Shown here piece by piece: positions 554 through 17,951 of a stretch of 21,274 nt of DNA. A program made the translations under genes and the position numbers. The notes under the pieces are model-generated. The model saw nothing but the letters and a program-made list of their open reading frames with translations. It ran no database searches and had not been told where the DNA came from. This stretch comes from a virus, in IMG/VR virus record IMGVR_UViG_3300036770_005176, positions 1-21,274 of that record; one strand, given 5' to 3'. Positions within the stretch are counted from its first letter, which is position 1. Every line of letters starts with the position of its first letter.

Positions 554-570
554 TAAAATTGGAGCGATAG

Positions 571-2358: not shown

Positions 2359-2372
2359 AAGAAAGCACTTGC

Positions 2373-2380
2373 GATAAATA
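2373..2380 (+). promoter_or_regulatory. Putative T4-type late promoter (GATAAATA)
   Basis: GATAAATA lies in the 43-base gap between two fibre genes, on their strand. It matches the T4 late consensus TATAAATA and the NATAAATA form described for T4-like cyanophages. With the usual geometry (motif ending at -6), transcription would start near 2386. That leaves a short leader carrying GGAG at 2391-2394 before the ATG at 2402. The position and exact match make this the clearest late promoter on the plus strand. No -35 element is expected for this class. Confidence 0.6.
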
Positions 2381-2401
2381 ACAGTATAACGGAGTTGATC
2401 A

Positions 2402-4147
2402 ATGGCATATCAAGTAGATAGATTTAATGGAACATTTTTAGTATCCGTAGATGACGGTACCATTGATACTACCACCGATATACGTTTTGTAGGTAAAAAT
2501 TATGCCGGTTACGGTGAAGTTCAAAACGAAAATTTCCTTCATCTGTTAGAAAATTTTGCTAATACCAGCGCACCACCTAAAGTAATCACCGGACAGATTT
2601 GGTACGACAGCGGAAACAAAAAATTAAAATTTTATGATGGCAGTAAATTTAGAACTGCCAGCGGCGCCGAAGTAGGACCCACTGCTCCCTCAGGACTTCA
2701 GACCGGAGATTTTTGGTTTGACACTAGTGCAGAACAATTATATGCTTACAATGGTTCTACATTCGTTCTTATTGGACCGGAAACTGCGCCTGAATTAGGC
2801 GCTTCTTCGCTGGTAGCACAAGTTGTAAAAGATAATGTAGGTGCTAATCACAGTATAGGTAAGTTTGTAACGGGCGGAGAAACTGTCGCCATAGTCAGCA
2901 AAGATGCTTTTACTTTAGATAGTTCTATCAATCCTATCACAGGATTCACGACTATCAAAAAAGGATTAAATCTAGTCAATACCAATAGTACTACAGGAGT
3001 AACTAGCACAGATCATTTCTATTGGGGAACAGCATCGAATGCTGCTAGACTCGGCGGATTTTTAGCGACTGAATATGTTAGAACTAGCGAAGTAAGATTT
3101 GACAGCGAAGTTAATTACTCAGACCCGGGATTTACAGTTGGAGGAAATTTTCCTGATTATTCCAAAGACCTTGTAATAAGAATAGAAAATGGCGACGAGC
3201 CGGTAATCGAATCGAAGTTAGGTAATTCATTAACATTAAGAGTACGAGCCCCTGGAAATGACTTACGAAATTTTTATATTACTAGCACTGGTTTTGTGCC
3301 CGGAAGTAACAATTTTTACTCTCTAGGTACCCCAGTCGAAAAATGGGCAAATGTTCATTCCTTTATTTTTACCGGCGATTTGACCGGCAATGTGACTGGG
3401 AATACGACCGGTTCTCACTCCGGTCCTGTGACAGGTAATGTAACAGGTAATGTAACAGGTAACGTAACAGGAACATTAACAGGTAATGTTATCGGATCTG
3501 TCACTGGTACTGCAACCAACGCATTAACATTGAATAGTTTGGCTGGAGAAATTGGTGCAGTTGCTACATCAGTGGTACTGAGAGATGCTAGTGCTAATAT
3601 CACAGCATCAAGATTTTTAGGAGTCTCAGATAGAACTGATAGATTAAAAATAGATGATAGTGCTGTAGACACTGATCCGGCATATCGTTCAGCAAAAACG
3701 ACAGCGACGGGCGATACTATTGCCGCCAGAGATAGTTCTGGAAATCTGTTTGCTGTATTATTCGATGGAACAGCCACTGCGGCCAAATATGCAGACCTGG
3801 CCGAAAAATATCTAACAGATAAAGAATACGAAGTTGGAACCGTAATGTCAGTTGGCGGTGAAAAAGAAGTAACTGCATCTAGATTTGGAGACAGAGCGAT
3901 TGGTGTTGTTTCTGCTAATCCTGCATTCATGATGAACAAGGATTTAGAAGGTGGTACATATATTGCTTTGAAAGGCCGAGTTCCTATAAAAGTTATAGGT
4001 AGAATTTCTAAAGGTGATAGATTAGTTGCCGATGATAATGGACATGCGGTCATGGCAAGTTATCACAGTCATCCTGATGTTTTTGCTATTGCATTAGAAG
4101 ACAGCGACAATGTTGGATCTAAGTTAGTTGAATCGGTCGTGTTATAA
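2402..4147 (+). CDS. Tail-fibre-like structural protein (581 aa) with TGNV repeats
   Basis: Starts at ATG 2402, eight bases after GGAG (2391-2394), below a late-promoter match. Residues 1-90 ('GYGEVQNENF', GQIWYDS) and the last ~130 residues ('ADLAEKYLTDKEYEVGTV', VGVVSxNPAFMMN, GRVPIKVxGRISKGD) are paralogous to the preceding gene; the middle differs. Residues 299-317 ('GSNNFYSLG' then 'EKWANV') form a motif commonly found before shaft repeats in marine phage fibres. Residues 324-372 are a Gly/Thr/Asn/Val repeat built from TGNV units. The pair probably arose by duplication with divergence of the central region, as expected if that region sets target binding. A role as a virion appendage component is well supported by architecture; receptor specificity is unknown. 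Confidence 0.8.
   Translation: MAYQVDRFNGTFLVSVDDGTIDTTTDIRFVGKNYAGYGEVQNENFLHLLENFANTSAPPKVITGQIWYDSGNKKLKFYDGSKFRTASGAEVGPTAPSGLQTGDFWFDTSAEQLYAYNGSTFVLIGPETAPELGASSLVAQVVKDNVGANHSIGKFVTGGETVAIVSKDAFTLDSSINPITGFTTIKKGLNLVNTNSTTGVTSTDHFYWGTASNAARLGGFLATEYVRTSEVRFDSEVNYSDPGFTVGGNFPDYSKDLVIRIENGDEPVIESKLGNSLTLRVRAPGNDLRNFYITSTGFVPGSNNFYSLGTPVEKWANVHSFIFTGDLTGNVTGNTTGSHSGPVTGNVTGNVTGNVTGTLTGNVIGSVTGTATNALTLNSLAGEIGAVATSVVLRDASANITASRFLGVSDRTDRLKIDDSAVDTDPAYRSAKTTATGDTIAARDSSGNLFAVLFDGTATAAKYADLAEKYLTDKEYEVGTVMSVGGEKEVTASRFGDRAIGVVSANPAFMMNKDLEGGTYIALKGRVPIKVIGRISKGDRLVADDNGHAVMASYHSHPDVFAIALEDSDNVGSKLVESVVL
3371..3517 (+). repeat. TGNV tandem repeat region in a fibre gene
   Basis: This in-frame stretch encodes successive TGxx tetrapeptides (TGDL, TGNV, TGNT, TGSH, then TGNV three times, TGTL, TGNV, IGSV, TGTA). 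At DNA level the central part repeats a 12-base unit close to acaggtaatgta at roughly 3429-3490 with few changes. Such short Gly/Asn/Val repeats are typical of elongated phage fibre shafts. The near-identity of the central units suggests the array can expand or shrink by slippage or recombination. Confidence 0.75.
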
Positions 4148-4157
4148 GGATTAGAGG

Positions 4158-5126
4158 ATGGCAAATAGTGTAGGCGGAATAATCGAAGCAGTCGACTACA
4201 ATAGCATTAGAAATAAAGTTATTGCAGTTCTCGGTGACGGATCGGGAAATACCGGATATGGTCAAACTCCAAGAATACAGAGTTCGGCGGTATCTGGCGG
4301 AGTTATAGTTTCAGCCACCCAATGGTCTAATCTTCGTTTTGATATTTTTAATTGTTTATTGCATCAAAACGGAACTAATCCGAGTATAGTTTCTGTGGCA
4401 GTAGGAGACGTGCTTAGGTATGGTGCAGCCCATCCTAACAATGCCTACGATACTTTGGCTAATACTTTAACTTCAAATAGATTTAATCTAGGTTCAGGAC
4501 GATTTTCTACAGAAGCATTGGCCAATACCAATTCCGGTGATATAACATGGTTTAGCACATGTTATGTAGATATCACATATACATTCAATACTGCAGACGC
4601 AGCACGACATTTTTTTAATAGTGGCGGTCAACTCCGTGTATCTAGCAGTTTTACACCTTCGGTAACTAAGGCACAGACTACTAGTTGGGCCAACCTATTG
4701 GCATCGGCTGGTTCTCGAGCATTTGGAAGCCAGACTCCGTCGTCGGGATTTTCACCTATGGACGGAACGAATTTTTATCGATTAACCAGTTCATTACAAA
4801 CCTACTATACCGCGACTGCTAGTAGTCCTTATTCAGCAAACAATTACAGATTACAAGCAAGATGTAATGTATCCAATAACTCATCTGGCACAGCCAATAT
4901 TGTAGTTATTAGGGCACTGTTTACTGATGGGTATGTAGATCCTCCACCCGGAGCAGGATCATTCCCTCCAGAAGATTCTGTCAACGGAACAATATCTGTA
5001 TCAACAGATATGATTAAACCAGGAGGCACGATGCAACCTGCTCCTGCAACAGGAAACTTCACAGTTCGGGGCCCTGATTCTGCAGGAGGCGGTTCTACAT
5101 CGTTTAGTTCGTTCGTTTATTCATAA
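4158..5126 (+). CDS. Putative virion structural protein (322 aa)
   Basis: ATG follows AAGGA (4146-4150) by seven bases and starts 10 bases after the preceding stop. The N-terminus 'GGIIEAVDYNSIRNKV' followed by LGDGSGNTGYGQ resembles, from memory, proteins encoded beside fibre genes in T4-like cyanophages and pelagiphages. The protein is rich in Ser, Thr, Asn, Gly and aromatic residues, with few charged residues and long predicted beta character. Near the C-terminus (residues 257-265) a proline-rich DPPPGAGSFPP-like linker leads into a Gly/Ser-rich tail. No enzyme motif or signal peptide is visible. It closes the structural block. An appendage or adhesin-like role is the best guess; the family has no function I can name. 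Confidence 0.65.
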   Translation: MANSVGGIIEAVDYNSIRNKVIAVLGDGSGNTGYGQTPRIQSSAVSGGVIVSATQWSNLRFDIFNCLLHQNGTNPSIVSVAVGDVLRYGAAHPNNAYDTLANTLTSNRFNLGSGRFSTEALANTNSGDITWFSTCYVDITYTFNTADAARHFFNSGGQLRVSSSFTPSVTKAQTTSWANLLASAGSRAFGSQTPSSGFSPMDGTNFYRLTSSLQTYYTATASSPYSANNYRLQARCNVSNNSSGTANIVVIRALFTDGYVDPPPGAGSFPPEDSVNGTISVSTDMIKPGGTMQPAPATGNFTVRGPDSAGGGSTSFSSFVYS

Positions 5127-5183: not shown

Positions 5184-5534
5184 ATGGACGATCGATTAAA
5201 AAATGCGCTAGATTTTTCTAATTATAGACAAACACTTTCTATACAACGTAAATCTCTTAAAGAAAGAATGCAAGGTAAACTAACCTATGGATTCAATGGA
5301 GGCATCTTTAAAATAGATCAAACTCTTTTATCTTTTGTTTCTATATTATGTACAGAAGGAAGGACTCGAGGTGTTGTTCTTTTAGATATAAATGAAAATC
5401 CTATATTGATAGAAAATCTTGAAGTTTTTAAAACTGAAATATTTGATAGATTTTTTACTGTTTCTTTTGAATATCAAGAAGAATATAACAAAATTAAAAA
5501 AAGTAGATCCGTAGAAAAACTAGTAGATCTATGA
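5184..5534 (+). CDS. Conserved T4-like marine phage protein of unknown function (116 aa)
   Basis: ATG follows GGAGAG (5175-5180) with good spacing, and the stop overlaps the next start as ATGA. Residues 35-50 ('TYGFNGGIFKIDQTLLSFV') form a compact hydrophobic core. Around residues 60-80, 'GRTRGVVLLDINENPILIENLE' reads like strand-turn-strand, and an acidic/aromatic helix follows. The C-terminus is a lysine-rich helix (EYNKIKKSRSVEKLVDL). From memory, similar proteins occur beside fibre genes in cyanophages. No catalytic motif, membrane segment or signal peptide is seen. As the first gene of a coupled unit it could be a small virion or assembly protein, but the sequence does not establish this. 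Confidence 0.7.
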   Translation: MDDRLKNALDFSNYRQTLSIQRKSLKERMQGKLTYGFNGGIFKIDQTLLSFVSILCTEGRTRGVVLLDINENPILIENLEVFKTEIFDRFFTVSFEYQEEYNKIKKSRSVEKLVDL

Positions 5535-6388
5535 AAAAAGGAATAGTAGTTATCGCGCACAATAATCGAGATGTCGATTATGCCAAAATGGCGGTCGTGT
5601 CAGCAAAATTCGCCAAGAAAAATTTACAATTGCCAGTTAGTCTTATAACTGATGAGTCGACTAAAGAGTGGATGGTAACTTCTAAATTGATGCCGACCGC
5701 GGTAGATATTTTTGAAAACATAATATCAGTGCCTAGACCTGTGTCAGGAAATCAAAGAATTTTACACGATGGAACGACATCATCGATAGTCCCTTTCTTA
5801 AACTCAAATAGATCTTCGATCTGGGATTATACTCCTTATGAAAAGACGCTGATGATAGATAGTGATTTTCTTATAATGACAGACGTCTTAAACAATTATT
5901 GGGAAATCGATCAAGATGTTTTATTAGGCCAACGATTCAATGATATACAGGGGGATCGAAAGGGATATCTAGATGATTGGACCAGTGAAACAGGAGTTCA
6001 CCTTTACTGGGCAACTACAGTGATGTTTACAAAAAATGAAAATAGTAGAATATTTTTTAAATTAATTGATTTCATAAAAGACAATTATAAATTTTATGCA
6101 GATCTTTTTAGATTTGATCCGAGGCAATATAGAAACGATATTACATTTAGTATAGCATATCATATACTGAATGGTTTTGAATTTAATAGATATTCTTTGC
6201 CCGCAATTTTAACTGTACAAGGAAAAGATATATTAGAAAAAATACATGAAAACGGAAGAATGATTTTTTCAATCAAATATTGGAATGATGATGTGTCTTT
6301 TTATCTAGCATCGATAAAAGACCAAGATATTCATATTATAAACAAGCAAAGTATCATTAGAAATTACGAAGGATTGATCAATCTATGA
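5531..6388 (+). CDS. Putative glycosyltransferase, GT-A-like, DxD motif (285 aa)
   Basis: Starts within an ATGA overlap with the preceding stop. Residues 3-9 (KGIVVIA) form a first beta strand, and the segment after it ('NRDVDYAKMAVVSAKFAK') resembles the nucleotide-sugar-binding start of GT-A enzymes. Residues 102-114 (PYEKTLMIDSDFL) carry a hydrophobic strand ending in D110-S-D112, the metal/nucleotide-binding DxD expected for GT-A folds. Residues 158-170 (HLYWATTVMFTKN) and the following helix resemble acceptor-side elements, and they match the next gene's product in order and spacing. Donor and acceptor are unknown. There is no transmembrane segment, so a cytosolic enzyme acting on virion protein or a soluble acceptor is plausible. 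Weak Shine-Dalgarno; translational coupling is likely. Confidence 0.6.
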   Translation: MKKGIVVIAHNNRDVDYAKMAVVSAKFAKKNLQLPVSLITDESTKEWMVTSKLMPTAVDIFENIISVPRPVSGNQRILHDGTTSSIVPFLNSNRSSIWDYTPYEKTLMIDSDFLIMTDVLNNYWEIDQDVLLGQRFNDIQGDRKGYLDDWTSETGVHLYWATTVMFTKNENSRIFFKLIDFIKDNYKFYADLFRFDPRQYRNDITFSIAYHILNGFEFNRYSLPAILTVQGKDILEKIHENGRMIFSIKYWNDDVSFYLASIKDQDIHIINKQSIIRNYEGLINL

Positions 6389-7227
6389 ATTTCGGATATC
6401 TGATAATTGTTTCTAAAAATGAATCTGTTGATTATTTAAAATTAGCATATGCTTTGGCCTTGAGTATTAAAAATACTCAAAAACCAGGATATGATAAAGT
6501 GGCATTGGTTATAGACGATAAGACTTTATTGGAAAACATCAAATCTCCTTGGGTATTCGATCATATAACAGAATGGAATCAAGAAACATTCTGGGACGGA
6601 AGATCCTGGATGGATAGATTGACTCCTTGGGAATATACAGTGTGCTTAGATGCAGATATGTTATTTTTAAGAGATTACAGCCATTGGATCGATTATTTTA
6701 TAGAAAATTGCGAATTGTATGTTCCGAATCGCAGTTTTACATATAGAGGAGAAGTCATTACCAATGACTTTTATAGAAGATGTTTTACTAGAAACGATCT
6801 TCCTAATTTATATTCCATGTGGACATGGTTTCGTAAAGATTCAAAATTAGTCGAAGAATTTTTTAGCCTAGGAAGATATATTCTTAAAAATCCTAAAGAA
6901 TTTAGTAACTTATTTTTAACCGAATTTAAACCTAAGGTGATAGGTACAGACGAAGCATTTGCATTATCATCGAAAATTCTAGACATACAAGATGATATTT
7001 CTTATGATTTAGAATTTCCTAGAATCGTGCATATGAAAGGTGAAATACAAAACTGGCCATGGCCTGCTGATAAGTTTACAAATCATATAGGGTTTTATTT
7101 AAACAAAGATGCTCAATTAAAAATAGGAAATTACCAACAGCACGACATCGTTCATTATGTAGAAAAAGATTTAATTACGGATGAAGCAGTTAGCATTCTT
7201 GAGGAGATAGCGTGGAAGCCGCGATAA
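6385..7227 (+). CDS. Putative glycosyltransferase, GT-A-like, DAD motif (280 aa)
   Basis: ATGA overlap with the preceding gene; AAGGA at 6369-6373 may help initiation. It is a divergent paralog of that gene: 'NESVDYLKLAYALALSIK' near the N-terminus mirrors the VDYAKMAVVSAKFAK segment. The key strand reads 'PWEYTVCLDADMLFLRDY', with D89-A-D91 as the predicted metal-binding DxD. A later GTDEAF (187-192) and 'RIVHMKG' (213-219) resemble the catalytic-side acid/His-Lys features of several retaining GT-A families. NWPW at 223-226 is distinctive. Two intact, differently diverged copies side by side suggest sequential sugar additions or different donors. Substrates are not readable from sequence. 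No signal peptide or membrane anchor. Confidence 0.62.
   Translation: MNFGYLIIVSKNESVDYLKLAYALALSIKNTQKPGYDKVALVIDDKTLLENIKSPWVFDHITEWNQETFWDGRSWMDRLTPWEYTVCLDADMLFLRDYSHWIDYFIENCELYVPNRSFTYRGEVITNDFYRRCFTRNDLPNLYSMWTWFRKDSKLVEEFFSLGRYILKNPKEFSNLFLTEFKPKVIGTDEAFALSSKILDIQDDISYDLEFPRIVHMKGEIQNWPWPADKFTNHIGFYLNKDAQLKIGNYQQHDIVHYVEKDLITDEAVSILEEIAWKPR
7201..7206 (+). promoter_or_regulatory. Strong Shine-Dalgarno (GAGGAG) supporting a GTG start
   Basis: GAGGAG lies five bases before GTG at 7212, inside the last codons of the preceding glycosyltransferase gene. It fixes GTG rather than a later ATG as the start of the 198-aa protein. Confidence 0.7.
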
Positions 7228-7808
7228 AAGATTTAATAGAATGGATGCAAAGTCTTCCTGTGACAGAAATTAAATATTATGCTGTGTTTGATCCCGCATC
7301 CGGAAATATTTTAGGCATCTATCCAGATCATTCATGTCCGACCGTTGCTAATAAAATAGAAGTTGACGAAGAAATTGCCCAGTCAGTGTTTGAAGGTAAA
7401 ACATTGTTGACTTCATATGTTGTTAATACAGATGATAATTCTTTAGAAATTATTGAAAACAAAAGTCTGACAAAAATCGATGATGTTTTACATAGAATTA
7501 TTGATAAATCTTGGGCGGACATTATAGATCCAGATGTAATTGTTTCGGTTTCTTCGAAAAAAATATCGATACAACTATCAGAAAAATTTTATAAATCTAG
7601 AAAAATCTATTGGGATGGTAGTACAGAAATGTTATTCCTCGTAACCGATTACAATGATCCAAACGGATTACACGAAACTTTCTCGACCACTGTAGATAAT
7701 TTGTTTAATTCGAAAATCATAGAATTTGAGATTACTGCGCCTTTGAATTTTAGTATCTATACCAGAAGAATTTTTAAAAATTATGTAATGAATTATGAAA
7801 ATAATTGA
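7212..7808 (+). CDS. Conserved phage protein of unknown function (198 aa), GTG start
   Basis: The start is GTG, supported by GAGGAG five bases upstream and a 16-base overlap with the preceding gene. Residues 20-35 (IKYYAVFDPASGNILGIYP) and 42-65 look like a small mixed alpha/beta fold. Residues 80-105 continue with an acidic helical region ('SLTKIDDVLHRIIDKSWADI'). The second half has 'WDGSTEMLFLVTDYNDPN' (about residues 134-151) and ends in 'FSIYTRRIFKNYV'. From memory, this arrangement recurs in cyanophage proteins of unknown function near fibre genes. No cysteine cluster, DxD or membrane segment. It sits between two types of glycosyltransferase-like genes, so an accessory or virion role in the same process is possible but unproven. 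Confidence 0.65.
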   Translation: MEAAIKDLIEWMQSLPVTEIKYYAVFDPASGNILGIYPDHSCPTVANKIEVDEEIAQSVFEGKTLLTSYVVNTDDNSLEIIENKSLTKIDDVLHRIIDKSWADIIDPDVIVSVSSKKISIQLSEKFYKSRKIYWDGSTEMLFLVTDYNDPNGLHETFSTTVDNLFNSKIIEFEITAPLNFSIYTRRIFKNYVMNYENN

Positions 7809-8703
7809 ATTTGATGTCGTTTTTTTAAGTTACGATGAACCTAATGCAGATCTGCACTATGCAGACCTCTGTAATAAAGTGCCTTGGGCAAAACGAGTTC
7901 ACGGAGTAAAAGGATCCGACGCTGCGCATAAGGCTGCTGCACAATTATCAGAAACTGATCGATTTGTTACAGTAGATGCAGATAACATCGTTTATAATTC
8001 TTTTTTTAATCTAGATTTAGCCGTCAAGGAAAATATTGATGTTTATAGTTGGGTCGGCAAAAATGTTATTAACGGATTAATGTATGGCAACGGAGGAGTC
8101 AAACTCTGGAAAAAAGATTTTGTTTTAAATATGCATACCCATGAGTCTAGCAACAGTGATAGAGCCCAGGTAGATTTTTGTTGGGAAAATGGTTATCAAC
8201 AATTTCCTGATTGTTTCAGTGATGTAATTATTACTGGTTCACCTTTCCAAGCATGGCGGGCAGGATTCCGTGAAGGTGTTAAGATGACATTACTCGACGG
8301 AGTCAAAGTTCCGCCTCAAGAAATTAAACAGCAGATATGGTGGCATAATTTACACAGATTACAGCAATGGGCGACAGTAGGGTCGCATATAGAAAATGGA
8401 ATCTATGCGGTATACGGTGCGAGATTAGGAACATGGTTAGCAAATTGCACAGATTGGAATTATGTAGAAGTTAGAGATTTTGAAATTTTAAAAAGCATTT
8501 GGAATCAATACGGAAAACCTTACGAGGAAGTAAACGGCGAAGGACTAATAACAGCCATTAAAGATCTCGGAGAAAAAATCAAACATCAGTTAGGATTAGA
8601 TTGGCCTTGGCTAGATTCTTCACAGAGTCAATATACATTAAATCTTTATCTAGAAACCATAGAGTTGTCTAAAACTTATTACAGGTCACCTAAAGATGTA
8701 TGA
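7795..8703 (+). CDS. Putative glycosyltransferase-like protein, 'SYxEPNAD' family (302 aa)
   Basis: Starts 14 bases inside the preceding gene. Residues 6-19 (FDVVFLSYDEPNAD) give an N-terminal strand and loop; 'PWAKRVHGVKGSDAAHKAAA' follows at 30-49. RFVTVDADN (56-64) is a hydrophobic strand ending in D61-A-D63, the expected DxD. Downstream are 'YGNGGVKLWKKDF' (97-109) and 'FQAWRAGFREGVKM' (151-164). The order strand, nucleotide loop, DxD, Gly-rich acceptor loop fits a GT-A-like transferase. The family is, to my memory, widespread in marine T4-like phages, often labelled hypothetical or glycosyltransferase. It is homologous to the C-terminal domain of the next gene. The transferase function is inferred from the DxD context; the substrate is unknown. 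Confidence 0.55.
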   Translation: MKIIEFDVVFLSYDEPNADLHYADLCNKVPWAKRVHGVKGSDAAHKAAAQLSETDRFVTVDADNIVYNSFFNLDLAVKENIDVYSWVGKNVINGLMYGNGGVKLWKKDFVLNMHTHESSNSDRAQVDFCWENGYQQFPDCFSDVIITGSPFQAWRAGFREGVKMTLLDGVKVPPQEIKQQIWWHNLHRLQQWATVGSHIENGIYAVYGARLGTWLANCTDWNYVEVRDFEILKSIWNQYGKPYEEVNGEGLITAIKDLGEKIKHQLGLDWPWLDSSQSQYTLNLYLETIELSKTYYRSPKDV

Positions 8704-9049
8704 TATTTTTTATGTTGCAAAGGGAAATGTCAATCAAATAAGGTGGGAAGAATTTAAAAAAAGATTTCCCAGATCTCAAAAAGTTGAAAATGCTAGTATA
8801 GAATTATTAAAATCAAAATCTCTCACAAAGTTTTTCTGGGTAGTCTGGGATGATATTATCGTCGAAAATGATTTTAATTTAAGTTATCGGGTTTCTAGTT
8901 ACGATGAAGGATACGTTCATGTTTTTAGAAACGGACAGTTTTACGATGGTGTGTGTTTAATATCTAAATTCCATCAGATTACTACAAAAGAATTTGACAA
9001 TAGATTTTTCACGGACAAAAAAGAAATAGACATATTGGCCTCTAACCCT
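8696..9049 (+). repeat. Degenerate module repeat 1 (encoding residues 1-118)
   Basis: The encoded segment starts YDIFYVAKGNVNQIRWEEF and includes RFPRSQKV, which aligns with YDIVFISYNEPNADENFEKL and RFPRAKRV of the C-terminal domain. It then has FFWVVWDDIIVENDFN against FYVVDGDAEIVDDFN. It is the only N-terminal copy that keeps the domain's first half. It ends KKEIDILASNP. Confidence 0.65.
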
Positions 9050-10348
9050 AGGCCTTATGATAAATTTAAAATTTCAGATTACAAAGATTATCTGCTGGCT
9101 ATAGAAAATAGTTCTACAGAAATGTTTTGGGCAATATGGAACGATTTACAACTTGTTGATGATTTTGATTTTAATTTTCAAGTACACAAACACAATCAGC
9201 ATATCACACATATCTTTAAAAACAAAGATTTTTTTGACGGATTATGCTTAATGTCTAAAAACAAACTGGTTACAAAAAAAGAACTGGACCATAGATTTTT
9301 TATAGAAAAAAAAGAAATAGATATATTAGCATCATATCCCTTGCCTTTCGAAAAATTTATAATAGATACTTACGAAGATTATTTGGATGCCTGTGATAAA
9401 AGTACCATGGAAATGTTTTGGATGATTCCCAAAGAAGTTGAAATTTTAAATTTTGATTTCGATTTATATTTCAATCATCACAATTCTTATGACAGAAATA
9501 TGAATCATGTATTTCAACATAAGTTTAAGAACGAATTGACTTATAACGGAATTTCTTGTATTCCTAAAAACAAAAAATTATCTAAAAAAGAAATCGATTT
9601 TAGATTTCCTATCGAAAAGAAACAGTACGAAATCGTTGCATCGAAATTAAAATCTTATGATATTGTCTTTATCAGTTATAACGAACCTAACGCAGATGAA
9701 AATTTTGAAAAATTAAAATTGAGATTTCCTAGAGCAAAAAGAGTGCATGGCATAAAAGGTATACATAATGCACACAAAGCCGCTGCTGAAATAATAGAAA
9801 CAAACATGTTTTATGTAGTAGATGGTGATGCAGAAATCGTTGACGATTTTAATTTTGATTATGAAGTATCTAGATACGAAAGAGATATTGTTTTTATCTG
9901 GCAATCGATCAATCCGATCAATGATTTAATTTACGGGTACGGCGGAGTAAAATTGTTACCAAGAGATTTAACATTATCGATGAATACAGATACCGTAGAT
10001 ATGACAATGTCTATAAGCGACAGAATAAAAGTAATAGAGACGGTTAGCAATAAAACTCGATTTGACACCGATGAATTTTCCACGTGGAAGTCTGCATTCA
10101 GAGAAAGTGTCAAATTATCTAGTAGACCAATCGATGAAACTTATGACGAGCAAACAGATTTTAGATTACAGACATGGTGCTCTAAAGGTTCAGATAGAAA
10201 ATTTGGGATATATGCTATAGATGGAGCAACGGCAGGCAGGGAATACGGATATAATAATATCGGTAACAACCAAGCATTGAAAAAAATAAACGATTTTTTC
10301 TGGTTAAGAGACTTATATGAGCAACGAACAAAAAATATTCATCCTTAA
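8696..10348 (+). CDS. Modular 'SYxEPNAD' glycosyltransferase-like protein with three degenerate N-terminal repeats (550 aa)
   Basis: Overlaps the preceding gene by 8 bases and the following one by 32. Residues 319-550 form a complete domain homologous to the 7795-8703 product: FISYNEPNAD (325-334), 'RAKRVHGIKGIHNAHKAAA', FYVVDGDAEIVDDF with D376-G-D378, 'YGYGGVKLLPRD' (413-424) and 'FSTWKSAFRESVKL' (461-474). Upstream are three copies of part of the same module (about 1-118, 119-216, 217-316). Each has the pattern FWxxW(or P)xx...DFDFxF...HxF...(D/N)GxxC...RFxxxKKxxxIxAS. In these copies the DxD position reads WDD, WND or PKE, so they have probably lost catalysis and may bind sugar or act as scaffold. 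No membrane or signal sequence. Confidence 0.6.
   Translation: MYDIFYVAKGNVNQIRWEEFKKRFPRSQKVENASIELLKSKSLTKFFWVVWDDIIVENDFNLSYRVSSYDEGYVHVFRNGQFYDGVCLISKFHQITTKEFDNRFFTDKKEIDILASNPRPYDKFKISDYKDYLLAIENSSTEMFWAIWNDLQLVDDFDFNFQVHKHNQHITHIFKNKDFFDGLCLMSKNKLVTKKELDHRFFIEKKEIDILASYPLPFEKFIIDTYEDYLDACDKSTMEMFWMIPKEVEILNFDFDLYFNHHNSYDRNMNHVFQHKFKNELTYNGISCIPKNKKLSKKEIDFRFPIEKKQYEIVASKLKSYDIVFISYNEPNADENFEKLKLRFPRAKRVHGIKGIHNAHKAAAEIIETNMFYVVDGDAEIVDDFNFDYEVSRYERDIVFIWQSINPINDLIYGYGGVKLLPRDLTLSMNTDTVDMTMSISDRIKVIETVSNKTRFDTDEFSTWKSAFRESVKLSSRPIDETYDEQTDFRLQTWCSKGSDRKFGIYAIDGATAGREYGYNNIGNNQALKKINDFFWLRDLYEQRTKNIHP
9050..9343 (+). repeat. Degenerate module repeat 2 (encoding residues 119-216)
   Basis: The encoded segment contains MFWAIWNDLQLVDDFDFNF, then HIFKNKDFFDGLCLMSKNK, and ends FFIEKKEIDILASYP. 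It is nearly collinear with repeat 1. The first half of the parent domain is replaced by a short helical stretch. Confidence 0.65.
9344..9643 (+). repeat. Degenerate module repeat 3 (encoding residues 217-316)
   Basis: The encoded segment contains MFWMIPKEVEILNFDFDLYF, then HVFQHKFKN, NGISCIPKNKKLSKKEIDFRF, and ends KKQYEIVASKL immediately before the intact domain. It is the most diverged copy at the DxD position (PKE). Confidence 0.6.
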
Positions 10349-11702
10349 GTCTAAAAGAGAAAAAATCAACACGGTTAGTCCTAGTTTCTGCACGGCTAAA
10401 TGGTTGCAAACCACGCTGTATCTACAGAACGGATATAACCATAGTTGTCATCATCCCAGCCCTCACAAGATTCCTATTCACGAAATAGAAGTCGATCCTG
10501 CAGCCTTGCATAATAGCAATTTTAAAAAATCTCAGAGAGAGTTAATGTTAAAAGGTGAAAGACCGTCGGAATGTGATTATTGCTGGAAGATCGAAGATCT
10601 TAATAAAGATTATTTTTCAGATCGACATTACAAGACGGCAGATTATTGGGCTTGGGATAGATTTGACGAGATAGCCTTTAAAGATCCGCGAGATAATGTT
10701 TATCCTGCTTATTTAGAAGTAAGTTTCTCGAATGCCTGTAATCTAAAGTGTAGTTATTGCAGTCCTGAGATTTCTAGCAAGTGGTTAGAAGAGATCAAAC
10801 AATATGGTCCTTATCCTATTTCAGAAAGCAATCAAGATATCGAATGGTACAAGAAAGTAGGTCGTTATCCTTATAAACACAGCGATGAAAATCCCTATGT
10901 CGATGCTTTTTGGAAATGGTTTCCTGAAGCATTGCCTCATCTTAGAGTATTTAGGATCACAGGCGGCGAACCTCTTATGAGCAAAGATACATGGCGTGTG
11001 TTTGATTACATTAGAGATAATCCTCAACCTGATTTAGAGTTAGCCGTCAATACTAATCTAGTGGTAGAGGAAAAACTCATAGAACGGTTTTTGTCTGCGA
11101 TAAACGATATAAAAGACAAAGTCAAAAAAATAGATATCTATACTAGTCTTGAAAGTGTAGGCGAACAAGCAGAATATTCCAGATTTGGATTAGATTACGA
11201 ATATTGGATCTCTAATGTACGTAGATGTTTAGAACAGACCGAGTGTACTGTTGCGGTCATGACAACCATAAACATCTTAAGTCTTCCTACTTTTTCGGAG
11301 TTCGTAGAATTAATAATGCAGTTAAGATGTGATTATAATGAGACTATGGATATTAATAGAATACCATTAAGTGTTAATTATCTCAGGTGGCCCGCACATC
11401 TCAGCGTTAAATTATTACCCTCTGATATGAGAAAGAAATTTAGCCAAGAGATATTCGACACGAGTCAAGCATGGTTAAAATATTATCGAAAACATCAGTA
11501 TGCTAGATTATATCTCGAAGAATGGGATCAGATAAAGAGGTTTTGTGATTACTTAATACAAGATGAGGATATCGGCCAAAGACGAACTGATTTTGTTAGA
11601 TATATACAAGAATATGATCGAAGAAGAGGAACCGATTTTTCTAAATCTTTTCCCGATTTCGCACATTTACTAAAGGAATGGAATGCCGAAGAGATCCAAT
11701 GA
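10317..11702 (+). CDS. Radical SAM enzyme, N-terminal twitch type, 'CHHP' subgroup (461 aa)
   Basis: The radical SAM core is clear: CNLKCSYC supplies C141, C145 and C148 (CxxxCxxC) for the AdoMet-binding 4Fe-4S cluster. GGEP (216-219) is the AdoMet-contacting motif. Residues 25-89 carry four further cysteines (C25, C44, C86, C89) in FC...SCHHP...CDYCWKIED, an N-terminal auxiliary-cluster segment. NCBI names such proteins 'twitch domain-containing radical SAM' with the twitch part preceding the core. Family signatures seen here are SSKW just after the core cysteines, a TNL motif, and AEYSRFGLDYEYW. The substrate is unknown; the chemistry should be AdoMet-derived radical modification of a peptide or sugar. 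Overlaps the preceding gene by 32 bases and the next by 20. Closest paralog is the next gene. Confidence 0.85.
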   Translation: MSNEQKIFILKSKREKINTVSPSFCTAKWLQTTLYLQNGYNHSCHHPSPHKIPIHEIEVDPAALHNSNFKKSQRELMLKGERPSECDYCWKIEDLNKDYFSDRHYKTADYWAWDRFDEIAFKDPRDNVYPAYLEVSFSNACNLKCSYCSPEISSKWLEEIKQYGPYPISESNQDIEWYKKVGRYPYKHSDENPYVDAFWKWFPEALPHLRVFRITGGEPLMSKDTWRVFDYIRDNPQPDLELAVNTNLVVEEKLIERFLSAINDIKDKVKKIDIYTSLESVGEQAEYSRFGLDYEYWISNVRRCLEQTECTVAVMTTINILSLPTFSEFVELIMQLRCDYNETMDINRIPLSVNYLRWPAHLSVKLLPSDMRKKFSQEIFDTSQAWLKYYRKHQYARLYLEEWDQIKRFCDYLIQDEDIGQRRTDFVRYIQEYDRRRGTDFSKSFPDFAHLLKEWNAEEIQ

Positions 11703-13185
11703 ATCGTTGGTTGATTATCGAAAACGTGTTATTGATATAAAAAGCGAAAGTTTTTGTGCGGCCAAATGGCTGAATGCTACTATATGGTTAGGCAGCGGTT
11801 CCACGACCAGTTGTCATCATCCACCGGCACACAACATTCCTCTAGAAGAACTCAAAGATAATTATACGGCTATACATAACACCAAGCATAAAAAACTGAT
11901 GCGTAAAATGATGATCGAAGGAGATCGTCCTCGCGAATGTGAATATTGTTGGAAGATTGAGGATATAGGCAAGGATCATGTCAGTGATCGTGTTTTTAAA
12001 ACTATCATCTATAAAGATCAAGAACTAGAAGATATCTATCAAAAACCTTGGGATCACAATGCAGAACTAAAAACACTAGAAATTAGTTTTGACAGAGTCT
12101 GTAATCTCGCTTGTTCATATTGTAATGCTAGTTTTAGTACTACATGGGCTCGTGATATTAAAAAGCACGGAGCCTATCAAAATTTAGTATCGGATGGTGC
12201 TGCTGCTTTTCAGCAAGATGGTTCATGGGTAGAGCCTTATAAGAATGATGAAGATAATCCTTATATTAAAGCGTTTTGGCAGTGGTGGAACAACGGACTA
12301 AGTACCAGTCTAGACGAACTACGTATCACCGGCGGCGAACCCTTGATGAGTGGTAACACTTGGAAATTGCTGGATTGGTTTAATGAACAAAATAGTACAA
12401 TGAGATTCGCCATTAATAGCAATCTCATAGCCAAAGATGATATAATAGATAAACTTATTGAAAAAACTAAAAATATACACGAGTTTCATCTTTATACTAG
12501 TTGTGAAGCAGTAGGTAAACAAGCAGAATATATCCGTGATGGATTAGATTACGATCAGTGGAAAAAAAATCTTGTGCGTATATTAGAGGCAGGTCATTGC
12601 CGAGGCGTACACATAATGATGACCATAAACAGCCTTTGCCTGTTTTCTATCACAGAGTTTTTCGACGAAGTCATGCAGATGAAAGCCAAATACGGAAAGA
12701 ATCCTACAGTTAGTGTAAATCTATTGCGTTTTCCTAGTTTTCAAAGTCCATTGGCCTTGCCTGATCATATCAAAGATTATTGTAGAATACGATTAGAAAC
12801 ATGGTATGAAAAAAATAAATCTAATCCGTTGATGCATGAATTTGAACGTGCTAGTATAGAGAGGTTAATTGATTATCTCATAGTAGTAGATGCTCCGCAT
12901 CGTCGTACAAGCAATAAGGTAACTTTGTGGAGAGACTTCAAGAGTTTTTATCGTCAATACGATCAACGAAGAGGTAAAGATATTTCAGTGTTTCCTACGA
13001 TTTTAACTGATTGGTTAGCACAGATTCCCGAAACTACCTTAGATAAGATACAGGTTTTAGTTGATGGTAACAGTACTAAGCAGTATGATGATGATGAGGA
13101 TCTTAAACGTTTGGCGGAAAAAGAAGGTTGGATATTAAATCCAGACAACAAAAATATCGACGATCCTTTGGCAAAATATGAATAA
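11683..13185 (+). CDS. Radical SAM enzyme, N-terminal twitch type, 'CHHP' subgroup (500 aa)
   Basis: The start at 11683 has AAAGGA (11672-11677) five bases upstream, inside the preceding gene. The N-terminal auxiliary segment has C25, C44 (SCHHP), C86 and C89 (CEYCWKIED) at exactly the same positions as the preceding paralog. The core has C140, C144 and C147 in CNLACSYC and GGEP at 217-220, and STTW follows the cluster. AEYIRDGLDYDQW matches the family motif. Similarity to the neighbour runs to the C-terminus, where both have a YDxRRGxD segment. This copy adds a C-terminal tail of roughly 45 residues rich in Asp, Lys and Glu. The pair looks like a tandem duplication and may act together or on different substrates. 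Overlaps the next gene by 8 bases. Confidence 0.85.
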   Translation: MPKRSNESLVDYRKRVIDIKSESFCAAKWLNATIWLGSGSTTSCHHPPAHNIPLEELKDNYTAIHNTKHKKLMRKMMIEGDRPRECEYCWKIEDIGKDHVSDRVFKTIIYKDQELEDIYQKPWDHNAELKTLEISFDRVCNLACSYCNASFSTTWARDIKKHGAYQNLVSDGAAAFQQDGSWVEPYKNDEDNPYIKAFWQWWNNGLSTSLDELRITGGEPLMSGNTWKLLDWFNEQNSTMRFAINSNLIAKDDIIDKLIEKTKNIHEFHLYTSCEAVGKQAEYIRDGLDYDQWKKNLVRILEAGHCRGVHIMMTINSLCLFSITEFFDEVMQMKAKYGKNPTVSVNLLRFPSFQSPLALPDHIKDYCRIRLETWYEKNKSNPLMHEFERASIERLIDYLIVVDAPHRRTSNKVTLWRDFKSFYRQYDQRRGKDISVFPTILTDWLAQIPETTLDKIQVLVDGNSTKQYDDDEDLKRLAEKEGWILNPDNKNIDDPLAKYE

Positions 13186-14509
13186 AAAAATTATTGAAAT
13201 AATATCTTCTAATCCAGAGTCTTTAGTTAAAAATAATAAAGCATTTTGTGCGGCACCATGGATGCATACACACGTATGGCCAGACGGTCGCGTTTTTCCT
13301 TGTTGTATGTCGGACTACAATGCAGTTTTGGGAAATATAAACCAGGTTGAATCATTTAATGAAATATGGAACAATAACAATTATAAAAATCTTCGTAAAG
13401 ATATGATCGACGGGACTCTGAGATCTGATGTGTGTAATAGATGTTACGCACAAGAAAACCATTCGATTACTAGTCTTAGACAAAAATTAACTAAAGAATT
13501 TTGGGATGATTTAGTAGATCAGTTAAAGAATACTGAAGAAGATTATTCGACAGATCTTAAAATACCGTATTGGGATTACAGATTTAATAATATTTGTAAT
13601 TTAAGTTGTAGAACCTGCGGTCCGGATTTGAGTAGTAGTTGGTATCAAGATCATGTTTCTATGTATGGTACACCACCAAAATATTCAACTACTAAGTTTG
13701 TTGTTTTTGATCCAAATAAAGAACGATCTTTTCATAAAGAGTTAATTGAAGATCAAATAGAATATGTCAAAGAAATTTATTTTGCCGGCGGCGAACCGAT
13801 TCTTATGCCAGAACATCTTGATATTATACAACGTTTGATAGAAAAGAATAAAACAGATGTTATAATTAGATATAGTACTAATTTAAGTGTATTATCTTAC
13901 AAAGGTGAAAATTTTTTAGATTTATGGCCTAAATTTAAAAGAGTTTTACTATATGTAAGTCTAGATGAAATTTTCGATCGTGCCGAGTATTGGAGAAACG
14001 GAACTAACTGGATTAGATTAGAAAAAAATATAAAATTAATAATTGAACTTAAAAGAAAACATCCAAATGTAATAGTAGGATATGCTCCTACTATTAGTAT
14101 TTTTAATGTTCATCGTATGGACGAATGTGTAAAATATTTAATTTCGACCGAATTAATGAATTCAACTACACCTTTCGTTTATAATATTTTACAGGGTCCT
14201 GCTGAATTTAATATTAAAAATGCTCCGCCTGAATTAAAAATCTTAGCCAATGATTCTCTAGAAAGATTAAAAAGTATAATAAAAGATTGGCCAAGACACA
14301 TTAATGATATTAATAGTGTTCAGAATTGGTTACACGAGCCGGTAGTTGATACAAAGATTTTTTATACAGCCTCAAAACATTTAGCCGAAATCGATAAAAT
14401 AAGAAATCAAAATTTACAAACAGTGGCTCCTGAGATATACAATATTTACAAAAAATATGGATATGACGAATACTATAATAACTTTACGCCTCGTAAACAG
14501 ATTATCTAG
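13178..14509 (+). CDS. Radical SAM enzyme, N-terminal twitch type, 'CC' subgroup (443 aa)
   Basis: N-terminal segment FCAAPWMHTHVWPDGRVFPCC gives C24, C42 and C43, with C86 and C89 in CNRCYAQE: the canonical N-terminal twitch pattern of this family. The radical SAM core has C140, C144 and C147 (CNLSCRTC), SSSW after it, and GGEP at 204-207. A YSTNLS motif and AEYWRNGTNW follow. 'LGNINQVESFNEIWNN' (51-66) resembles the substrate-side segment seen in SPASM/twitch proteins. All ligand residues are intact, so the enzyme should be active. It is visibly more AT-rich in codon use than the two preceding genes, suggesting a different history. Start overlaps the preceding gene by 8 bases; Shine-Dalgarno weak, so coupling is likely. 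Confidence 0.85.
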   Translation: MNKKIIEIISSNPESLVKNNKAFCAAPWMHTHVWPDGRVFPCCMSDYNAVLGNINQVESFNEIWNNNNYKNLRKDMIDGTLRSDVCNRCYAQENHSITSLRQKLTKEFWDDLVDQLKNTEEDYSTDLKIPYWDYRFNNICNLSCRTCGPDLSSSWYQDHVSMYGTPPKYSTTKFVVFDPNKERSFHKELIEDQIEYVKEIYFAGGEPILMPEHLDIIQRLIEKNKTDVIIRYSTNLSVLSYKGENFLDLWPKFKRVLLYVSLDEIFDRAEYWRNGTNWIRLEKNIKLIIELKRKHPNVIVGYAPTISIFNVHRMDECVKYLISTELMNSTTPFVYNILQGPAEFNIKNAPPELKILANDSLERLKSIIKDWPRHINDINSVQNWLHEPVVDTKIFYTASKHLAEIDKIRNQNLQTVAPEIYNIYKKYGYDEYYNNFTPRKQII

Positions 14510-15464
14510 CGACATAGAGCCATTTAATTTACAAATTAAGTTAGATAATAATCTTGCGGTAAATCAATGGCTTGATAGATTTATCTATGAATTAGAATCT
14601 GGTTCTATGCTAAAAAAAGAACATATCTTTATGAGTCATAGTCCGTTGACTGTAGAACAGATGATATCGCAAATTAACAGAACACTAGATGAAATAAGCA
14701 ATTATGATTTTATTACCAACCAGCATCCAAATTATCCTATCTATGCACAACCAGAAATAAATGAAAGATTAAACATTAACGATTTTTTGGAAGGTCCCAA
14801 CAATTCAAAAATGAATTTAATTCATAATTATTTTCCTATGCTTGCCGGATCTGCACACAGAACAAGCAATTATATGTATGCTGCTTCTTTGAGAATAAGA
14901 ATTAAAATTTGTAGATTAAATCTAGAAGTTCATGAACTTCATACGGTATTACAAAAAAATAACAAACATGATGGCATGCATCTTAATATTAGTTGGCAAA
15001 GGGCTCCTAATAAATTAGAAAGTTTACCAATAGAATTCGATGAAATTTTTACTAAATTTATAACCTTCGGCGATGTTTTATTAGGATACCCGCAGGTAGG
15101 AAAAACCCATTTTGAAGCATTTATCGAGGAAGATAATGAATTAGATTCTGAACATGTAGAACCTATTAAACTTCTAAGTGGAGATATGTTATTACATCTT
15201 AGTTCAGACATCGGTCAAAACACTATTGAAAAGTTTAATAATTGGCTTGTCGAAAAAAATTTAGATCCTAACGATAAGACTTTAAGATTAGGTTTTGCAA
15301 AATTGGGAAGAGTTATAAATGTAGATCCAATCATAGTTAAAGATAAATTATGTGAATATAATGATATTGATCAAATATCTGTCGGAGAAAAAGTTTTTAA
15401 TTTTATTTACAGTAGATTTGATGATGATTATGATGATATATGGTTAAAACATGTCGACGACTAA
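14457..15464 (+). CDS. Unknown protein inside the radical SAM run (335 aa)
   Basis: The first ATG (14457) gives a 53-base overlap with the preceding gene; ATG 14463 (MTNTIITLRL) is an alternative that trims only two residues. The frame then runs cleanly to a 14-base overlap with the next radical SAM gene. About residues 114-160 contain 'NLIHNYFPMLAGSAHRTSNY' followed by 'IRIKICRLNLEVHELH'; later comes 'FGDVLLGYPQVGKTHFEAF'. From memory, a similar arrangement (HxF...L.G, RxLNxxxHExE, GxVGKTxxEAF) recurs in marine phage proteins of unknown function, often beside radical SAM genes. The GK in QVGKTHF is not preceded by a proper P-loop, so I do not call an NTPase. No cysteine clusters. Its location suggests a partner, carrier or substrate of the flanking enzymes; that is inference. 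Confidence 0.7.
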   Translation: MDMTNTIITLRLVNRLSSDIEPFNLQIKLDNNLAVNQWLDRFIYELESGSMLKKEHIFMSHSPLTVEQMISQINRTLDEISNYDFITNQHPNYPIYAQPEINERLNINDFLEGPNNSKMNLIHNYFPMLAGSAHRTSNYMYAASLRIRIKICRLNLEVHELHTVLQKNNKHDGMHLNISWQRAPNKLESLPIEFDEIFTKFITFGDVLLGYPQVGKTHFEAFIEEDNELDSEHVEPIKLLSGDMLLHLSSDIGQNTIEKFNNWLVEKNLDPNDKTLRLGFAKLGRVINVDPIIVKDKLCEYNDIDQISVGEKVFNFIYSRFDDDYDDIWLKHVDD

Positions 15465-16791
15465 AAAAATCAGCGAATTTTTTTGTATAGCTCCTTGGAC
15501 TCATACCTATATAAGTCCGCAGAGTGAAAGAAGATTATGCTGTGCCAGCAGAGAAGAGGCTTCATGGACACAGCAATACATCGATGCCAAGGTTCCAGCC
15601 GCAAGTAAAAAATATATTCCTATGACTTTAGAACAACACTGGAACAGCGAACACATGAAATCCGTTCGTAAGAGAATTTTAGACGGAGAAAGAATTCCGG
15701 AATGTGAAGTCTGTCATAGTCAACAGTTAAATTTATACACCTATAGAAATTATTTTACTGAAACGTTATTTCCTCACAAAATCGAAGAGGCCCTGATTTC
15801 TACCGACGACACAGGACATACGACTATGAAGCCTATAAGTTTTGATTATAGGATACACAATCTCTGTAATTTTAAATGTCGTATGTGTGGAGAACAGTTG
15901 TCTAGCAGTTGGGAAACAGAAAAAAGATTGATGGATGTTTGGGATCCAAAAAAAGACGCCTGGATGATCCCAGAAAATAAAAAAGTTGTAGAAGATTTTC
16001 AAAAAACTGTGGTAGAAGAAGAATTATGGGCAGCAGTTAAAGAAGACAGGATAGAAGAAATCTACTGGGTAGGCGGTGAACCTTTGATGTATCAAATACA
16101 TTGGGATGTGATGAAATACTTAGTTGATAATAATCAAGCTCATAAGGTCGTCGTTAGGTACAATACTAATCTAAGCATTGTAGAACGCAATGGAATAAAT
16201 CTATATGATCTATTACCACATTTTAAACGTGTTAATATGTGCTGTAGTCAAGATGCCACAGGAAAAATAGCAGAGTTTGTAAGAACAGGGTTGAAATATG
16301 ATCGTTGGTTAGATAATTTCAAAAAAGGAATTTTTCTAAATTCTAAATACGGAATGGACGCTATGGTAATAGATGTTACCATTACTCTTCCAGGACTATT
16401 AGATATGAAATCGTTAATGAATCTTGCGGTCGAACTCGGAGTAAAAAGTTATGTAAAGATAACTTTTGATTTTGATAGTTCTATTTTAATGAGTCCTATG
16501 TGTCTTCCTAGAGATATTTTAGATCCTATACTTTATGATCTTATCGAATATGAAAAAAATTTAAATTCTCAACTAACTTTTGTCTATAGAGAGACATTTA
16601 AAAATATGTTATCTAGACCTACATTCGAAGAAAAATATTCCGATAATTATCAAAGAGGCTTAAAACACGGCAAAGATAGATTACAGAAAATAGCAGAATT
16701 TAGAAAAGATGGAAAAGATGGACATTCAATAACGATCGAAGATATTTTTTCTCATCATCCCGAAGTATTAAAATGGTGGCAGAATATATGA
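15451..16791 (+). CDS. Radical SAM enzyme, N-terminal twitch type, 'CC' subgroup (446 aa)
   Basis: ATG lies 14 bases inside the preceding gene. The N-terminal segment has FCIAPWTHTYI (C12), RLCCAS (C30, C31) and CEVCH (C85, C88). The core has C139, C143 and C146 in CNFKCRMC, SSSW after it, and GGEP at 208-211. YNTNLS and AEFVRTGLKYDRW match the family. The insertion between the CC pair and the CxxC pair (about residues 35-60) is longer than in the 13178 paralog. A second notable feature is a CC pair at 'VNMCCSQDATG' (about residue 263), beyond the usual ligand set; the other four paralogs have leucine, threonine or similar there. All core residues are intact. Substrate unknown. Confidence 0.85.
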   Translation: MSTTKKISEFFCIAPWTHTYISPQSERRLCCASREEASWTQQYIDAKVPAASKKYIPMTLEQHWNSEHMKSVRKRILDGERIPECEVCHSQQLNLYTYRNYFTETLFPHKIEEALISTDDTGHTTMKPISFDYRIHNLCNFKCRMCGEQLSSSWETEKRLMDVWDPKKDAWMIPENKKVVEDFQKTVVEEELWAAVKEDRIEEIYWVGGEPLMYQIHWDVMKYLVDNNQAHKVVVRYNTNLSIVERNGINLYDLLPHFKRVNMCCSQDATGKIAEFVRTGLKYDRWLDNFKKGIFLNSKYGMDAMVIDVTITLPGLLDMKSLMNLAVELGVKSYVKITFDFDSSILMSPMCLPRDILDPILYDLIEYEKNLNSQLTFVYRETFKNMLSRPTFEEKYSDNYQRGLKHGKDRLQKIAEFRKDGKDGHSITIEDIFSHHPEVLKWWQNI

Positions 16792-17951
16792 GCAATGATA
16801 TTACCTGTTGTCTACCGTGGAATCATTTGGCTACACATCCCAATGGCAATGTTAGTTTGTGTTGTCAGGCAAAACTAGATGATGGTTCGGGATTTGCAAA
16901 AACACAAGGCAATTTTTTAAATCTAGAAAACAGAAAAGTTATTGAAATTCTTAATTCCGATTCATTTGTTAATGTAAGAAAAAAAATGATAGCAGGTGAA
17001 AAGCCCGAAACCTGTATGAGGTGCTATGATGCAGAATCTAAAGGCGAATGGAGTAAACGTGTTTTTGAGAATCGACGATTTGATTGGAATCCTGGTAATT
17101 TAACAGAAATTGTTTCTCAAGGTAATTTAGAATTTTTAGAATTAAGATTAGGAAATGTCTGTAATTTAGCCTGCGCTACCTGCAATTCTATCAGCAGTTC
17201 TAAGTGGGTCAAAGACGAAATTGCTCTATCAAATAAACTATCTTGGTATAAAGATATAACACATATAGAAACTAAAAGATATAAATGGTTTGAGGATGAA
17301 TCTTTTTACGAAAAATTAGCAGAAGATAATCCTAACCTTAAAACAATTTATATAAATGGCGGAGAACCATTTTTGATAAAAGCACATAAAAGATTGTTAG
17401 AAAAATTAGTAGAAAATAATAAAGCTAAAAATATATCATTAGAGTATAGTACAAATGTCACGATTCTTCCGATTGATTATTTGCAATTGTGGAAAAATTT
17501 TAAATCTATTACTGTAATGTTAAGTGTTGATGATCTAGAAGAACGTAATGATTGGTTAAGATGGCCTAGCCAATGGAATGATATTGAAAAAAATATAAAT
17601 TGGTATATTGAAAATAAATTAGATAACTTAGATTTAATAATGTGCCAGACAGTTAATGCTCTTAATATATTTTATGTTGATCAATTTATAGAATATTGCA
17701 ATAAACTTAAAATAAAACATACCGCTAACTTTGTTTATTCACCTTCAATATTCAGTGCAAGATCTCTAAACGAACCTAAAAAAGAATATGTATTGAATAA
17801 ATTTAAAGATTTAAATCTTTCTCAATTAAAATCTTGGTTAGAAATACCATATGATATAGAATCTGAAAAGAAATTAATAGAATTTGTTACCGAATTAAGT
17901 TTTTTGAGAAATATTAATAGCGAAATATTTAATTTTAAAAATATTTACTAA
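16788..17951 (+). CDS. Radical SAM enzyme, N-terminal twitch type, 'CC' subgroup (387 aa)
   Basis: I chose ATG 16788, which forms an ATGA overlap with the preceding stop. ATG 16773 would add five residues. The N-terminal segment is shortest here: CCLPWNHLATHPNGNVSLCC gives C7, C8, C25 and C26, with C76 and C79 in CMRCY. The core has C125, C129 and C132 (CNLACATC), SSSKW after it, and GGEP at 191-194. YSTNVT follows; the usual AE(Y/F)xRxG motif is weaker (ERNDWLRWPSQW). It is the most diverged of the five at that site, which may reflect a different substrate. Very AT-rich. Last gene of the coupled unit, facing convergent genes across a palindrome. Confidence 0.83.
   Translation: MSNDITCCLPWNHLATHPNGNVSLCCQAKLDDGSGFAKTQGNFLNLENRKVIEILNSDSFVNVRKKMIAGEKPETCMRCYDAESKGEWSKRVFENRRFDWNPGNLTEIVSQGNLEFLELRLGNVCNLACATCNSISSSKWVKDEIALSNKLSWYKDITHIETKRYKWFEDESFYEKLAEDNPNLKTIYINGGEPFLIKAHKRLLEKLVENNKAKNISLEYSTNVTILPIDYLQLWKNFKSITVMLSVDDLEERNDWLRWPSQWNDIEKNINWYIENKLDNLDLIMCQTVNALNIFYVDQFIEYCNKLKIKHTANFVYSPSIFSARSLNEPKKEYVLNKFKDLNLSQLKSWLEIPYDIESEKKLIEFVTELSFLRNINSEIFNFKNIY

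Follow-up and report, generated by a model that had tools for sequence, protein, structure and literature searches.

Five genes in the fibre region of a viral genome encode distinct, probably active radical SAM enzymes with an N-terminal twitch domain, and they lie in a single overlapping operon. Such arrays recur in other viruses; their members are old paralogs that have been inherited together and did not arise by recent tandem duplication. That such phages carry genes of this kind, and many of them, is already known in outline; what is described here for the first time are the clades, their fixed order and the tie of the array to GT-A and GT8-like genes. The glycosyltransferase-like genes upstream of the array provide the best clue to the pathway.

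The window, i.e. the whole stretch of DNA that was analysed, comprises all 21,274 bases of the IMG/VR record IMGVR_UViG_3300036770_005176 and carries no tRNA genes. From 5′ to 3′, fibre/virion-type genes (2–5126) are followed by a small gene (5184–5534), a GT8-like pair (5531–7227), an unknown gene (7212–7808), a GT-A-like pair (7795–10348) and the array itself (10317–17951), which consists of radical SAM genes 1, 2 and 3, the intervening gene U, and radical SAM genes 4 and 5. Opposite-strand genes, a T4-type exonuclease among them, come after the array. The two tail-fibre genes resemble each other at their two ends but not in between. Bit scores in the following list refer to the NCBIfam model NF033640.

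571–2358, + strand: tail-fibre gene (PHROG tail fibre match)
2402–4147, + strand: tail-fibre gene (PHROG tail fibre match)
4158–5126, + strand: virion-type gene of family f3, which occupies this place in 78 loci
5531–6388, + strand: GT8-like glycosyltransferase of family f2 (87 loci), homologous to f1 by profile comparison
6385–7227, + strand: GT8-like glycosyltransferase of family f1 (92 loci), with a glycogenin-1 profile match
7212–7808, + strand: unknown protein of family f11, 198 aa (38 loci)
7795–8703, + strand: GT-A fold glycosyltransferase-like protein of family f0, by predicted fold (107 loci)
8696–10348, + strand: 550-aa protein, the C-terminal part of which is an f0 paralog (GT-A-like)
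10317–11702, + strand: radical SAM gene 1, 461 aa, clade E (38 sequences in 38 loci), 'CHH' type, 339.8 bits
11683–13185, + strand: radical SAM gene 2, 500 aa, clade A (89 loci, multiple copies in just 2), 'CHH' type, 309.0 bits
13178–14509, + strand: radical SAM gene 3, 443 aa, clade J (18 loci, single copy), 'CC' type, 353.8 bits
14457–15464, + strand: gene U, 335 aa, without family match, recurring next to or within arrays (45 loci)
15451–16791, + strand: radical SAM gene 4, 446 aa, clade D (51 loci, single copy), 'CC' type, 297.6 bits
16788–17951, + strand: radical SAM gene 5, 387 aa, clade G (29 loci, single copy), 'CC' type, 304.5 bits

The open frames bear out two points of a first-pass annotation of this DNA, namely five radical SAM frames of 461, 500, 443, 446 and 387 aa with one gene between the third and fourth, and an overlap of 4–53 bases at every junction. 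The successive overlaps are 20, 8, 53, 14 and 4 bases; an upstream ATG at 16773 gives gene 5 a length of 392 aa instead of 387, and with this earlier start the last overlap becomes 19 bases. All five proteins match NF033640 (N_Twi_rSAM) over nearly the whole model, with 297.6–353.8 bits against a curated cut-off of 170, so that the profile check proposed with the annotation speaks for an intact rather than a degraded family. Other NCBIfam models yield weak, superfamily-level matches only. The Pfam model Radical_SAM (PF04055) is matched over its cut-off by four of the five (protein 4 reaches 25.1 versus 29.5 bits), and Pfam SPASM matches the N-termini of proteins 3 and 5 over cut-off and that of protein 4 just under it, with proteins 1 and 2 unmatched.

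CxxxCxxC, GGEP and the four N-terminal (twitch) cysteines are invariant across the window's five proteins; SSxW, which all five had been said to keep, is present in four, the second protein reading STTW. The second twitch cysteine defines two types, CHH in proteins 1 and 2 and CC in proteins 3–5, and seven cysteines are invariant in a 48-sequence alignment of CC-type and other clades. Pairwise identity among the five is 19–29%, save 39% for the first versus the second. The full six-gene run has its nearest relatives at two loci, L009, where it is complete, and L008, which ends after gene 4, with 39–84% protein identity. Compared with these relatives the five genes evolve under purifying selection: dN/dS is 0.05–0.23 where computable and 0.40 for the fifth gene, with dS high or saturated. 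Degraded copies are ruled out by the NF033640 scores, motif retention and purifying selection, and chance resemblance is excluded as the source of the five matches.

From sequence, each protein is predicted to hold one AdoMet-cleaving 4Fe–4S cluster and one auxiliary cluster in its N-terminal domain. A single auxiliary cluster is suggested because this domain aligns with the C-terminal auxiliary-cluster (twitch) domain of BtrN, and the number of cysteines gives no sign of the three cluster sites that the first-pass annotation had proposed to look for. BtrN is a 2-deoxy-scyllo-inosamine dehydrogenase acting on an aminocyclitol (4m7s, 4m7t); the match is weak (E 1e-5) and the domain order reversed, with the twitch domain first in the viral proteins and last in BtrN. 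The radical SAM domain gives an equally weak profile match (E 1e-5) to cytosylglucuronate decarboxylase (7vob), an enzyme with a sugar nucleoside substrate, in which no counterpart of the N-terminal twitch was detected.

Clades were defined by depth in a tree of 551 sequences, and support for the main ones is 0.64–1.0. By clade, the window array reads E-A-J-U-D-G, and arrays in other viruses read B-A-C-F-D or E-A-(H or P)-D-G. Considering all pairs among nine main clades, the majority order is held by 571 of 587 gene pairs; CHH types stand first and CC types later. Loci with more than one copy of a clade are rare (2/89 for clade A, 0/51 for D, 0/38 for E and 0/29 for G), the exception being clade I with tandem duplicates in 8 of 12 loci. 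Within-clade identities correlate between clades across loci (Mantel-type r 0.58–0.92). Recent tandem duplication of one gene is ruled out as the origin of the window array, given that the clades recur across loci and that most window copies share 19–29% identity. It is reasonable to infer joint function of the array members, although common ancestry by itself could preserve their order as well. The first-pass annotation had offered a multi-step pathway, or several enzymes acting at different sites or on different targets; distinct clades in fixed order, with about one copy per clade per locus, fit several enzymes, and the pathway stays conjectural.

The same annotation had called a run of five intact, diverged copies unusual, and this has to be given up. 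Viral contig searches with two alignments of these genes returned at least ~590 confirmed relatives among the matches listed. About 160 viral loci were retrieved using these genes as queries, and cluster counts there do not represent prevalence: two or more copies are clustered at 120 of the 150 retrieved loci with scorable copies, clusters of four to eight are common, and the longest has eight. An unbiased sample is provided by 32 records picked solely by their T4-type exonuclease gene; copies over the cut-off occur in 21 of these, and 11 have three or more, as counted from the listed places. NF033640 matches number up to 21 in a single viral record, under-cut-off ones included, as seen in the records G006 and G008 (347 kb and 519 kb, both viral; 21 matches each), to which the loci L076 and L137 belong. 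For the T4-like ocean virus TARA_ERS488813_N000010, passages of a 2017 paper report 12 radical SAM genes linked to Fe–S assembly genes (PMC5332604). Array rarity is thus rejected, and clusters of three or more copies, for which a survey had been proposed, are common in viral contigs.

The genes upstream of the array, on which the first-pass annotation is silent, appear to encode two pairs of glycosyltransferase-like proteins. The f1 and f2 profiles are homologous to each other (probability 99.8), and their joint profile matches glycogenin-1, a GT8 enzyme, at positions 3–115 (E 6e-9); single f1 or f2 members give no match to Pfam GT8. Judging from its predicted structure (pLDDT 87.3), f0 (7795–8703) is a GT-A fold, glycosyltransferase-like protein: residues 1–147 of the model match GT-A enzymes with Z 9–11 over 135–140 residues, and nucleotidyltransferases of the same fold match too. 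Present in 107 loci, f0 is the commonest gene directly upstream of arrays (48/120). Among the exonuclease-picked records it is found in all 21 radical-SAM-positives and 1 of the 11 negatives (Fisher p 1.7e-7, a value overstated because f0 adjoins the array and many records are fragments); conversely, a radical SAM gene accompanies f0 in 21 of the 22 records of this set where it is seen. A search of 50,697 phage records at E 1e-5 returned no f0 relatives. The product of the adjoining gene (8696–10348) shares 38% identity with f0 over 216 aa in its C-terminal part. Its N-terminal part seems by eye to consist of about three look-alike modules, with no repeats reported by a blastp self-comparison, and its relatives vary in length (441, 550 and 569 aa).

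Gene U (neighbour family 8) recurs in 45 loci, within or just after arrays. It has no Pfam, NCBIfam or PHROG match, no relatives in phage records at E 0.01, and no match in the 32 exonuclease-picked records in a search that lacked a positive control. Its model (pLDDT 87.6) gave no Foldseek match against the PDB at E 0.001, and uncharacterised phage proteins only in a viral structure library. With a second aligner cyclophilins rank top, at Z up to 9.4 where Z 7–8 is usual for unmatched models, and a helical insertion spans residues ~64–171. Gene U may therefore have a cyclophilin-like barrel with a helical insertion, which is to be taken as a lead only.

Neighbour families in general were obtained by clustering 2,253 neighbouring genes. 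Members of f0–f2 are absent at 46 of the 123 loci with two or more copies, and desaturase and Asp/Asn hydroxylase genes are found nearby there. Sugar genes next to arrays elsewhere include a carbamoyltransferase (42 loci), a UDP-glucose/GDP-mannose dehydrogenase (22) and an NAD epimerase (19). The carbamoyltransferase was rejected as a constant partner, since it occurs in 2 of the 32 unbiased records and in none of those with three or more copies. The A-type Fe–S carrier PF01521 is present in 15 of 30 records selected for radical SAM genes; we claim no association, as the unbiased set has it in 3 of 11 records with three or more copies versus 3 of 11 with none. Another family, f5 (e.g. L076:7449-8630; 143 members in 73 loci), is a frequent array partner with a conserved TEK...KPI...HPF stretch and without family or PDB match. 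A B12-binding radical SAM family, f14 (e.g. L085:5607-7850), occurs near some arrays (24 loci). The bacterial neighbourhoods of single copies are diffuse, with no clear sugar theme.

Several known systems come close to the array. NF033640 is matched over nearly the full model by all five proteins; the family record holds no function, and a tandem ordered array lies outside its definition. The pelagimyophage host recognition cluster, as described in passages of one paper, combines tail fibres, GT8 transferases and radical SAM cassettes, the latter appearing as additions to an otherwise similar cluster, and its authors suggest modification of the host surface (PMC7029224). These phages and the ocean virus with 12 copies resemble the window in having many radical SAM genes, or cassettes of them, in the fibre and glycosyltransferase region of T4-like environmental phages; in the passages concerned they are given as counts or passing mentions, and clades, fixed order and a GT-A gene adjoining the array are absent there (PMC5332604, PMC7029224). 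The open-licence literature, taken without supplements, yielded no description of the order, clades or function of the arrays. Cultured relatives are seawater Vibrio phages. One of them, Vibrio phage K566 (OZ196521.1), has four N-twitch genes (161548–168284) interleaved with GT8 and GT4-like genes, and six NF033640 matches genome-wide; its genes differ in having 26% identity, in falling outside the main clades and in having no annotated tail-fibre gene beside them.

The explanation that we prefer, and to which we give about an even chance, is a multi-enzyme pathway for glycan or sugar modification in the host-recognition region of the phage. Every step beyond the radical SAM identity of the proteins is our inference, be it the clusters they hold, the reaction, its substrate or a tie to host recognition. 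The radical SAM set would work with the upstream transferases, two GT8-like and two GT-A-like. In each enzyme, a 5′-deoxyadenosyl radical would take a hydrogen from a sugar carbon, and the auxiliary cluster would bind the substrate or accept an electron. In twitch enzymes such as BtrN, the auxiliary cluster binds the substrate or takes up an electron. Most probably, radical chemistry (oxidation, dehydration, epimerisation or similar) alters step by step an activated sugar or a glycan which the transferases use or build, and the clades would differ in the carbon they attack or in the sugar they accept. The product would then decorate the surface of the infected host or the phage's own fibres; the place in the genome is where T4-like environmental phages keep their host-recognition genes. 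The physically linked glycosyltransferase-like genes favour a sugar substrate, as do BtrN and cytosylglucuronate decarboxylase, which act on sugar-like substrates; against it, the profile match to viperin, which modifies nucleotides, is somewhat better than those to the latter two enzymes (E ~1e-5). The sugar genes near other arrays and the interleaved GT8 and GT4-like genes of phage K566 also speak for sugars, while the arrays without f0–f2 and the diffuse bacterial neighbourhoods speak against them. A bolder version is tentative and somewhat unlikely to hold in full: a widespread, ordered viral pathway in which up to eight clade-distinct radical SAM enzymes and dedicated glycosyltransferases would build glycans with undescribed sugars, and so remodel host or virion surfaces.

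The main rival to a glycan or sugar substrate is protein modification, which seems rather unlikely. The enzymes would here modify amino acids in a protein of the phage or its host, with the adjoining tail-fibre or virion proteins as the likeliest targets, possibly in addition to protein glycosylation by the GT8-like genes. Most characterized SPASM/twitch enzymes have peptides as substrates, and glycogenin, the GT8 enzyme that f1 and f2 match, glycosylates itself on a tyrosine. Immediately upstream of the cassette are tail-fibre genes, with virion-type f3 in that place in 78 loci; yet many other arrays have no fibre genes around them. No RRE-type domain or precursor-peptide family is matched in the operon by Pfam or NCBIfam, and since 10317–17951 contains no intergenic space, a separate precursor-peptide gene could not fit there, although the substrate could be encoded elsewhere. 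Asp/Asn-hydroxylase-like genes near other arrays would fit modified proteins, and so would a cyclophilin-like fold of gene U, but that resemblance is weak (Z 9.4 against an unclear background) and Foldseek gave no PDB match.

Alternatively, the substrate could be a small molecule or nucleotide apart from glycans, in viperin-like or cofactor chemistry that aids the phage during infection. Viperin is the best solved-structure profile match of the radical SAM proteins (E 3.6e-7), MoaA is matched as well, and the B12-binding radical SAM family occurs in 24 loci. Nevertheless, the proteins score ~22–24 bits with the prokaryotic viperin model NF038283, whose cut-off is 180, and the genes linked to the arrays are glycosyltransferases, not nucleotide genes, which makes this alternative very unlikely. 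It is also improbable, if slightly less so, that there is no common pathway at all, and that a tail-region island gathers interchangeable radical SAM genes with targets of their own, their order reflecting shared descent. Array make-up does differ among loci, clade I is tandemly duplicated in 8 of its 12 loci, and correlated divergence attests co-inheritance, for which joint function is not required; radical SAM cassettes added to a similar host-recognition cluster, as in the passages on pelagimyophages (PMC7029224), point the same way. Against this, a fixed order with near single copies across strongly diverged viruses exceeds what would be expected from free cassette exchange.

Radical SAM enzymes carry out otherwise difficult chemistry and demand iron and costly iron–sulphur clusters. 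At such a cost, 5 to 21 of these enzymes must bring a large benefit to the phage that carries them. A starting point for working out their function, and a definite list of genes to express, is now available in the clades, in the order that these keep and in the linked glycosyltransferase. If unusual sugars are made, as the sugar- or glycan-modification pathway would have it, the arrays would bear on how the most abundant viruses of the ocean recognize their hosts or seal them off, and they would be a source of novel enzymes; if proteins are modified, they would represent one of few virus-encoded protein-modifying radical systems.

N-twitch radical SAM genes, often in runs of four to six, also occur on many contigs assigned to one Elusimicrobia bin, which may be bacterial or misbinned viral DNA (CAIRTQ01... 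contigs L189, L197, L199, L202, L209–L211, L214, L219, L229 and L236–L238). In three further contigs from bacterial bins (L180, L182 and L183, assigned to Verrucomicrobia, Rickettsiales and Candidatus Pelagibacter), gene lengths and order are like the phage array layout, and these are probably phage contigs sitting in bacterial bins.
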